64,000 nucleotides of DNA from contig OY783210.1 in NCBI GenBank assembly GCA_963678705.1, positions 14,447,331 through 14,511,330 of the forward strand. Direction: 5' to 3'. The translations under genes were made by a program, and so were the position numbers. Each line of letters starts with the position of its first letter. Within the stretch, counting starts at the first letter, position 1. Under the pieces are notes generated by a model. It made no database searches, was not told the DNA's origin, and saw only the letters and a list, made by a program, of their open reading frames with translations. Origin of the DNA: Panorpa germanica. Its lineage: Eukaryota; Arthropoda; Insecta; Mecoptera; Panorpidae. This document shows, one piece after another, positions 48,278 to 50,316 of the stretch.

Positions 48278-48280
48278 TAA

Positions 48281-49207
48281 AGCCTGCTGCATATGTAACG
48301 TGTTTTAACCCGGACGGAACGTGTTTTAACCCGGACGGAACGGGACGACAATATCGTTTCATATAAAATGTATAGGAAAGTGCATACATCACGGGTGCAC
48401 GGACGGGACGGGGACGTGGCGTTGAAAGAACGGGAAAAAATATCGTCGACGACGATGTTTAGCACGTCCCACCCCGTGCGAGGCCCGTTCAGTACGTGGT
48501 TCCGCTGCGTATGCATAGCCTTCTGTACACGGGACGTGTTTTAAGTAGTGATGTGCGTTGCGTATTTATCAATTGGACATATTGAATAAATAAATAAATA
48601 ATAATAATAAAAATATTATAAATAAAATGGACGACGAAAAATTAGTGAGATCAAATTCATGTTTATACAGTTTGGCAGATCCAAATTATTTAGATGTGAA
48701 ACATAAAAATTATCTGTGGCGTAAAATTGCATTAGAATTATCGCTCACTGAAAACGTTTGTAAATTTTATTTAATTCATTAATTGCATCATATACACTCA
48801 TAATTTTGCAATAGATCTTAATATGTAACAATTACAGTTTAACTTTTTTATGTTAAAATCAAAAGACAGGTAGGTAAATATAGTAGACTGTCATGTTTTA
48901 CAATGTCGATATTTATTACATCAATATAATCAAGTATTATGACTTTTTAATATGACAGAAAGAGATAAAGCACATTTTGGTTAAAATTAGTTTGCATTTT
49001 AGTTTGGGTTACTTATGTTATTCATTAGGCATGTTAAAATTCATCTTTGCCTATTAACAACACTAGCACGTTGCTTTCGAGTCACTGTCACGGTGCGTAT
49101 GCACTAGGTGGGTATAAAATCCCGTACGTGTTTACCTAATACCACGTTCCGTCTCCGTCCCGTCCACGTCCCGTCCGGGTTAAAACACGTTACGTGTGCA
49201 GCAGGCT
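48281..49207 (+). mobile_element. PIF/Harbinger-type element carrying a MADF exon
   Basis: The left end AGCCTGCTGCATATGTAACG and the inverse of the right end AGCCTGCTGCACACGTAACG continue as TIRs of about 40 bases through TGTTTTAACCCGGACGG. TAA flanks both ends (48278-48280 and 49208-49210), the TWA duplication expected of PIF/Harbinger. Just inside the left end, a unit of about 22 bases (AACGTGTTTTAACCCGGACG) is duplicated in tandem, and CGGGACG motifs recur near both ends as possible transposase binding sites. The 927-bp body holds a MADF-type exon at 48627 and no transposase. The subterminal regions are far GC-richer than the host DNA. It is probably a deletion derivative of a larger autonomous element. 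Confidence 0.88.
48627..48782 (+). CDS. MADF-domain first exon inside a PIF/Harbinger element (partial)
   Basis: Starts ATGGACGACG (protein MDDEKLVRSN) and continues SCLYSLADPNYLDVKHKN, YLWRKIALELSLTEN. The pattern LV...S.LY....P.Y.D...K..LW..IA..L is the N-terminal half of a MADF DNA-binding domain (residues about 5-43 of 51). The frame stops at 48782, but a possible donor GAAAAC|GTTTGT sits where the conserved VxxKWKxLR segment should follow. It therefore looks like exon 1 with the later exons deleted. PIF/Harbinger elements are known to encode a second Myb/SANT/MADF-like protein besides the transposase, which fits its position between the TIRs. Too short to be functional alone. Confidence 0.72.
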   Translation: MDDEKLVRSNSCLYSLADPNYLDVKHKNYLWRKIALELSLTENVCKFYLIH

Positions 49208-49210
49208 TAA

Positions 49211-49966
49211 GAGTAAGTTGCAATTACTGTCTCACGAAAAGTAATTAAAAATTCCTTCATGTTTTCTAATTTAATTATAACAAATAATATTTTGATTTAC
49301 AGATTGCAAAACGAAATTCATTTAAGATTTTGATATTTCAGGTTTGTTCTTGTGTCATCATTTGGTTGTGTTGTTTTTGTTTTGGTTTATTTCCAGACCA
49401 ACTCAACACTGAATAACATTAGTTCGACGGCGGAGTGAAAGCTAATGTTAAATGCCAGATGATGTCTTCTACATTTGATAATGCAAAAATTGTTTTATAT
49501 GAAACGGTAGACTCTATGGAGATTGTACACTGTTAAAAATTATATCTAGTAAAATAATGACAAATAATTTCTTTTTTCAGCTTTTCAGTAAAGATGTTAT
49601 TTATCAAGTAATTTATATTTAGTAAAACAATTTTGTTAAGTTCTAGGCCTATTGACTATTTACACAGATGATTAAACAGTTGTTTGGTACAAGAAAATTG
49701 CAGAGTAAGGACGCAAATTTTTTCTACAATTAAGCAGTTGCAGCATTCATTCATTACAGTGATTCCGGAGGCTCAAAAAATGTTTCTTGGCTATTTTCAT
49801 GAATTATTCATATACGGAAGCCATTTTTAAATTACGATACAGATTCATAAAACGAATACTATGCTACATTTATAATGCTACGCAAGAATATTTTTTAACA
49901 TTTGTTTTCTTGGTATTACTTTTAAAATATAATAAAAAACCGGAACAATTTAAAATGATTTCAAGC
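49211..49966. other. AT-rich spacer
   Basis: A 39-base plus-strand segment at 49310-49349, between TTTACAG and CAG|GTTTGT, is open in one frame, but the donor is weak. Nothing else was recognised. Confidence 0.3.
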
Positions 49967-50316
49967 AAAAACTTCAAGATCACTACCACAGTAGTGATAA
50001 GCAAAAGCTTTAAGATCGTGAGTATAGTAGCGACATGCAAAAGCTATAAGATCGTGACTATAGTAGCGATAAGCAAAAGCGTTAAGATCGCTCCTACAGT
50101 AGTAACAAGCAAAAGCTTTAAGATCGTGAGTATAGTAGCGACATGCAAAAGCTATAAGATCGTGACTATAGTAGCGACATGCAAAAGCTTTAAGATAGCT
50201 CCTACAGTAGTGACAAGCAAAAGCTTTAAGATCGCTACTATAATAGTGATAAGCAAAAGCGTTAAGATCGCTATTATAGTAGCGACAAGCAAAAGCTTTA
50301 ATCGCTACTATAAACG
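49967..50316 (+). repeat. 36-bp minisatellite, nine units plus a partial, open on both strands
   Basis: Nine 36-bp units (49967-50290) are followed by a partial unit. Because 36 is a multiple of three, the array is translatable as 12-residue repeats on either strand: KSFKIVSIVATC-like on plus (frame 49787-50323) and LKAFACRYYSHD-like on minus. Units fall in a three-unit higher-order order (types F-V-S, Y-V-T, F/V-A-P) that repeats twice, so the array grew by 108-bp steps. Each unit contains a near-palindrome around GCTACTATAGTAGC. Whether either frame is expressed is unknown; I favour non-coding. Confidence 0.92.

Follow-up and report, generated by a model that had tools for sequence, protein, structure and literature searches.

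How does a short transposable element come to carry half of a DNA-binding domain? This question is raised by a locus within a 64-kb window (the whole stretch of Panorpa germanica DNA that was analysed), where an earlier note had recognised a small PIF/Harbinger-type element with an exon of a MADF gene in place of a transposase, and had considered it to be either a fresh deletion derivative or an element that distributes a DNA-binding exon to new loci. The evidence collected in our study makes it very probable that we are dealing with a non-autonomous PIF/Harbinger element which originated from a single internal deletion of a two-gene parent and was subsequently amplified, with the exon carried along as a passenger.

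Structure of the element

The complete element comprises 927 bases, starting with AGCCTGCTGCA at position 48281 of the window and closing with TGCAGCAGGCT at position 49207. These borders, as well as the assignment to the non-autonomous PIF/Harbinger-type elements, agree exactly with the earlier note, and the trinucleotide TAA is present on both sides (Table 1). The two terminal inverted repeats (TIRs) are identical at 40 of their 43 outer positions, and a TIR pattern of 32 positions (3 of them free, with up to 3 mismatches allowed) matched the window twice, once at each end, while the mean in 100 shuffled windows was 0. The GC-rich subterminal motifs that had been pointed out before are indeed concentrated here, as the sequence CGG[A/G]ACG occurs nine times across the whole 64-kb window, and eight of these occurrences fall inside the element. 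Such motifs are possible candidates for binding sites of the MADF protein. The 21-base unit to which part of them belongs is present in 1 to 3 copies among the family members with a left end, according to a loose pattern count, which makes the putative binding sites variable in number. A third TIR-like repeat, in direct orientation and 79% identical to the left TIR, was found inside the left end at positions 48517-48544, and it is also present in several other copies.

Table 1. Features of the element and its borders, in window coordinates
Feature	Position	Strand	Basis
Target site duplication TAA, left copy	48278..48280	.	sequence
Left TIR, 43 bases	48281..48323	+	match to right end; inverted repeat I1
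Tandem 21-base subterminal unit AACGTGTTTTAACCCGGACGG, 2.2 copies	48297..48342	+	TRF score 92
Left subterminal CGG[A/G]ACG motifs, putative accessory-protein binding sites	48315..48536 (48315, 48336, 48341, 48404, 48530)	+	motif count; positions across 39 copies
MADF accessory gene exon 1 remnant, N-terminal half of domain	48627..48759	+	Pfam PF10545; homologous exon in L066
5′ splice site region, altered: GTTTGTAAAT	48756..48765	+	compared with GGTATGTAAAT in L067/L068 and GATATGTAAAT in L066
Rest of the first MADF intron; read on the minus strand, region beyond the transposase stop codon	48760..49017	+	L066 alignment, 48833-48925 missing from L066
Fused transposase remnant: start MNF joined in frame to NMPNE and stop	49018..49044	-	translation; L066 termini
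Deletion junction, 6-base microhomology AAAATT	49036..49041	.	L066 alignment; junction pattern
Right subterminal CGG[A/G]ACG motifs	49145..49173 (49145, 49156, 49167)	-	motif count
Right TIR	49165..49207	-	inverted-repeat match to left end
Target site duplication TAA, right copy	49208..49210	.	sequence

The open frame within the element (48627-48782) matched the Pfam MADF profile PF10545 with 25-25.7 bits against a cut-off of 22, covering profile positions 4-46 of 84, so that the N-terminal half of the domain proposed earlier is recovered above the threshold. The proposal that the frame ends at a possible splice donor holds for the existence of a donor region, while the donor itself is altered and the last residues before the stop, CKFYLIH, represent read-through into the intron. 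A donor-like TGTAAAT is present in 38 of 39 copies.

Copies in the genome

A search with the 927-base element revealed at least 40 copies in the same 464-Mb assembly (119 match rows from the 40 scored of 120 candidates, the counts being lower bounds), and 35 of the 40 scored copies are near full length, extending from query position 40 or less through 925 or more. The exon peptide gave 56 matches, from which 14 loci beyond the initial 40 were taken for analysis, and one further locus in a cluster on C7 was left out of the resulting set of 54. One of these 14, L066, is a longer relative; two more, L067 and L068, are truncated outgroups, and the remaining loci match the short element wholly or partly. 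We estimate the family at about fifty short copies devoid of transposase. Of what the earlier note had hoped to collect from the genome, namely copies and a full-length parent, the former were readily obtained, while the longer relative proved to be broken.

Identical TAA or TTA duplications flank 24 of the 36 copies in which both ends could be read; one copy has TTT on both sides, and 11 have unequal flanks, eight of them combining TAA and TTA. When segmental duplicates were collapsed (n=31), 22 TWA pairs, one TTT pair and eight unequal pairs remained. This count omits L010, in which a wrong right end was picked, as well as L034, L045 and L047. The alignment used below contains 39 copies, without L047, which has no left end, and with L034 and L045, which have no true left end, trimmed at the internal TIR-like repeat. 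Divergence from the majority sequence has a median of 2.2% and ranges from 1.0 to 5.0% among the 39 copies, which does not fit the description of the element as a fresh derivative.

The unequal flanks are not evenly distributed. Six of the 31 independent insertions (L025, L029, L030, L036, L037, L041) have TAA as the left and TTA as the right flank, and the reverse was found in one only. A target duplication of two bases, TA, with an additional base on either side could explain such flanks, as could a mismatch at the middle base.

A segmental duplication with units about 18 kb apart is located at C7:8187462-8271604 (L049, L050, L051). Of three stretches taken from it, two carry two element copies in opposite orientation, about 3.5 kb apart, and the third shows one. 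The region at 8.19-8.27 Mb was considered as a composite parent and rejected, since it is segmentally duplicated and the paired copies in two of these stretches are ordinary ones; among frames of at least 90 codons in these stretches, no transposase was recognised by eye.

Longer relatives and sources of transposase

The closest approach to a parent is L066 (C2:14208000-14215700), a broken element of 3.65 kb whose right TIR is that of the family and whose left end has decayed. Read in the same direction as the window element, it contains a MADF exon 1 at about positions 1511-1653 (29.3 bits to Pfam MADF) and, on the opposite strand, a DDE_Tnp_4 domain at 2077-2544 (64 bits). A related element that shares the right TIR and carries a Harbinger-type transposase domain, as anticipated by the earlier note, is therefore present, and its homologous exon supports the view that the window element has retained the 5′ exon of an accessory MADF gene. 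Query positions 553-645 and most of 1-70 are absent from L066, and the identity over positions 71-552 is 78%. Since it is broken, gapped and diverged to this extent, we regard L066 as related to the parent but not identical with it. The order of its parts, a MADF exon 1 together with a DDE_Tnp_4 gene on the opposite strand, is what we take as the full-length organisation.

A search with the transposase piece of L066 gave 56 matches, among which the sole close one besides L066 was L086, all others being at most 52% identical. L086 is broken as well, and shows 78% DNA identity over 1.5 kb of the middle part. No intact close transposase of the family was thus seen in this search, which makes present activity of the family in this assembly improbable. 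A frame with a THAP domain (30.6 bits, cut-off 23.9) was noticed in L086:1-951, about 1.2 kb from the broken copy of the Harbinger transposase.

Several other candidates were rejected. L067 and L068 have retained exon 1 as well as the left end; they form a segmentally duplicated pair in which the match stops at query position 651. The best 12 of 151 DDE_Tnp_4 matches (L074-L085) have neither TIR nor DNA in common with the family in the approximately 3.5 kb examined for each, and L087, with a transposase 49% identical, has no matching TIR within 4.4 kb. Viral contigs searched with the exon and the TIR, and phages, gave no match, and nothing was found among solved structures, RNA families and tRNAs.

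Interlocked transposase and MADF genes

L087 provides an insight into how the two genes may be arranged. Within L087:786-2724, MADF exon 1 lies on the plus strand (786-918), the main transposase exon on the minus strand (within 1459-2349), and MADF exon 2 again on the plus strand, from about position 2354. This order places the main transposase exon within the predicted MADF intron, with MADF exon 2 on its far side. The 3′ splice sites of both genes, predicted by reading the sequence, are situated back to back about 24 bases apart, and the joined MADF exons 1 and 2 reach 74.8 bits and cover the whole profile.

In L066, MADF exon 1 is likewise followed by the transposase exon and then by a BESS-like stretch of the accessory gene, and L086 holds the transposase exon and the BESS-like part without MADF exon 1. 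With 12.9 and 17.2 bits, the BESS-like parts stay under the cut-off of 21. When the second half of the MADF domain was looked for with a simple pattern, L066 yielded no convincing match and L086 a doubtful one. In the portions available of the literature matches listed, nothing was found on such an interlocked arrangement of MADF and transposase genes, and this gene pair of the longer relatives is in our opinion the part most worthwhile to follow.

Probable origin by internal deletion

Around the junction, the alignment with L066 consists of two blocks which overlap by AAAATT, and about 2.9 kb present in L066 between them is absent from the window element. The transposase of L066 begins with MMNFLF and ends with NFNMPNE, and in the minus-strand reading one AAAATT copy is located in the first codons (MMNF) and the other in the last (NFNMPNE). 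The minus strand of the window element still encodes MNFNMPNE followed by a stop. A 39-base pattern spanning the junction, with up to six edits allowed, is present in 49 of the 54 loci and absent from L066. The other loci without it are L067, L068 and L069, whose alignments end before the junction, and L072, whose alignment includes the junction and ends nine bases past it. In L061 the pattern was matched, but the sequence differs immediately to the left of the junction. As the junction is common to so many loci, one founding deletion probably gave rise to the family.

According to the scenario we propose, the MADF gene of the parent would have begun near the left end on the plus strand and the transposase gene near the right end on the minus strand, the two being interlocked. 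A deletion of about 2.9 kb between the hexamers in the first and the last transposase codons would have removed the transposase almost entirely, and the downstream MADF exons, situated inside the deleted span, would have been lost together with it. The left TIR, the upstream region of the MADF gene, its exon 1, part of the intron and the right TIR region would have been retained. The TIRs and subterminal motifs are presumably what a transposase and a MADF protein acting in trans would need, and the short element could in this way have been copied throughout the genome, with the exon carried passively and decaying. No active transposase source of the family was seen and the only close copies found are broken, so this mobilisation in trans is inferred.

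The exon seems to have been defective from the beginning. In comparison to exon 1 of L066 it is nine bases shorter, and when it is aligned to L067 and L068, which also have these bases, it shows a gap of the same length at this site, together with four further differing bases. Because these nine bases are missing and the donor also departs from that of the longer relatives, the founder exon was probably damaged before amplification.

Fate of the exon

Constraint on the exon was assessed in two sets of copies. Rate tests were performed on 33 copies, omitting six members of the C7 cluster (L018, L019, L020, L023, L043, L045), and the test of silent changes on 29, omitting also L025, L026, L038 and L042, in which the frame is changed; both members of the segmental pair L013 and L028 were retained. 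The 29 copies hold 31 distinct exon changes, 23 of them replacing, five silent and three introducing stops. For silent changes, the spectrum of the non-coding part predicts 6.8, against the five observed (p = 0.52). The density of exon changes in 33 copies is close to the expectation from the rest of the element (44 vs. 44.9), and a mild deficit appears in the 29 copies that remain once the four frame-broken ones are removed (31 vs. 37.7). Larger deviations are located elsewhere: an excess at 48451-48560 (67 vs. 44.1 in 33 copies, 57 vs. 37.0 in 29), a deficit at 48851-48940 (17 vs. 28.9 in 33 copies), and deficits in the neighbouring intron that exceed that of the exon (15 vs. 23.4 and 15 vs. 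24.3 in the 29-copy test). The density of changes is thus uneven along the element, through alignment or local effects, and no constraint specific to the exon is seen.

The start codon is intact in 33 of the 39 copies, and 30 have both the ATG and a frame open to residue 44, a proportion that fits youth or weak selection alike. In L030, L039 and L041 the ATG is replaced by ATA; these copies form a clade (support 0.92) and have three different flanks. Another clade (support 0.94) unites six copies, with six different flanks, in which tryptophan 31, which we take to be the conserved MADF tryptophan, is changed to arginine. Lineages without a usable exon consequently kept inserting. Taken from the sequences compared, the MADF exon looks like a decaying passenger and not a working part.

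Discussion

In regard to alternative explanations, the exon could have been selected, the element spreading a half-MADF exon, together with upstream sequence and a splice donor, for fusions to exons at new loci or for a useful peptide, as in the earlier suggestion of an element that distributes a DNA-binding exon. The near-universal donor-like sequence, the predominance of open exons and the lower number of distinct changes in the 29-copy set are compatible with it. That deficit, however, disappears when all 33 copies are considered and is surpassed in the adjoining intron, silent and replacing changes occur in neutral proportion, lineages deprived of the start codon or of tryptophan 31 inserted again, and the exon lacks nine bases and has an altered donor relative to the longer relatives, all of which leaves this explanation with very little probability. 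An unrelated non-autonomous element might also be imagined to have picked up the exon from a MADF gene of the host, as MADF genes are common in insects. This capture was rejected and we regard it as hardly credible, since the homologous exon resides at the same place in L066, within the same flanking element sequence and with DDE_Tnp_4 alongside.

It is also conceivable, though improbable, that the short copies act against their parent, either by transcripts of the shared left end and exon that feed small-RNA silencing, or by producing a competing half-domain. The numbers seen, about fifty for the short copies and two, both broken, for the long ones, agree with this, as do the left end and exon 1 common to the element and L066. 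A review makes the converse suggestion for mPing and Ping, namely that Ping may escape silencing because the two have no coding sequence in common (PMC12595863). On the other hand, no clear constraint on the exon was observed. Loss of long copies is, moreover, the usual course for DNA transposons. Because the derivative retained the left end and the first exon of its parent, there is a slight chance that the family could be more than a passenger, namely a natural repressor through RNA matching the parent or a seed of rare exon fusions with host genes. The deletion derivative with a passenger exon remains our preferred explanation.

The family can be compared with published descriptions of related groups. 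In the part of PMC4482050 consulted, the PIF/Harbinger group is characterised by TWA target site duplications, by TIRs that in most cases are shorter than 60 bases and have A or G as their usual first base, by a DDE transposase and a Myb/SANT-type protein encoded in most candidate autonomous members, and by mobilisation through the transposase of the own family. The window family shows TWA duplications in the proportion given above and 43-base TIRs starting with A, and the two-gene content is seen in the broken L066 and not in the window element. The ISL2EU group is described in the same source with AT duplications, TIRs usually starting with GG and a second gene with a YqaJ domain, whereas here the duplications are mostly TWA, the TIR begins with AG, and the accessory gene, according to Pfam matches in both the window element and L066, is MADF. 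MITEs are defined in PMC9033116, in the section available, as elements of at most 800 bases with high copy number and no coding capacity. The copy number of the family is compatible with this definition, and the window element still contains a partial exon, truncated and without clear constraint; at 927 bases it exceeds the size, and we therefore use the term deletion derivative.

Similar elements have been studied in other organisms. Tourist-type elements such as mPing are thought to be internal deletion derivatives moved in trans, and the rice pair mPing/Ping, belonging to PIF/Harbinger, likewise consists of a non-autonomous element and a two-gene parent; in the excerpt of PMC12595863 mPing is stated to share no coding sequence with Ping, while the 927-base window element has kept a coding exon. 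In the zebrafish Harbinger3_DR, a two-gene PIF/Harbinger element, the Myb-like protein recognises a 9-base subterminal motif (PMC9710019, in part). Harbinger3_DR encodes both proteins, whereas the window element encodes none completely and binding to its CGG[A/G]ACG motifs is putative. Insect PIF elements and domesticated gene pairs also combine a transposase with a MADF accessory gene; the genes treated in the accessible text of PMC9710019 are domesticated and without TIRs, in contrast to the window family, which is multicopy, decayed and has TIRs. In Helicoverpa, HelPIF-1 to 9 are multicopy short PIF/Harbinger-type elements with TWA, AT or AWT targets, which as MITEs are by the definition in the seen portion of PMC9033116 at most 800 bases long and without coding capacity, unlike the longer window element with its partial exon. 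The window element is hence a further member of an already known type, the Harbinger deletion derivatives. Among the open-licence literature matches listed, in the portions available, none describes a non-autonomous Harbinger with a retained MADF exon.

What the family offers is a worked case of how a two-gene transposon could turn into a short derivative, through one deletion at a hexamer found in the first and last transposase codons and subsequent amplification. It would also explain why an exon is left behind without function: as the parental genes interlock, deleting one takes away most of the other, except for its first exon. For annotation, the several dozen open "MADF" frames of this kind in the genome should be treated as transposon debris.

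Two further features of the window can be mentioned. A fragment of a reverse transcriptase at 25542-25898 matches RVT_1 with 25 bits and so does not reach the cut-off of 29.6. At 49962-50312, a 36-base minisatellite is present in about ten copies, with a higher-order period of 108 and open frames on both strands.
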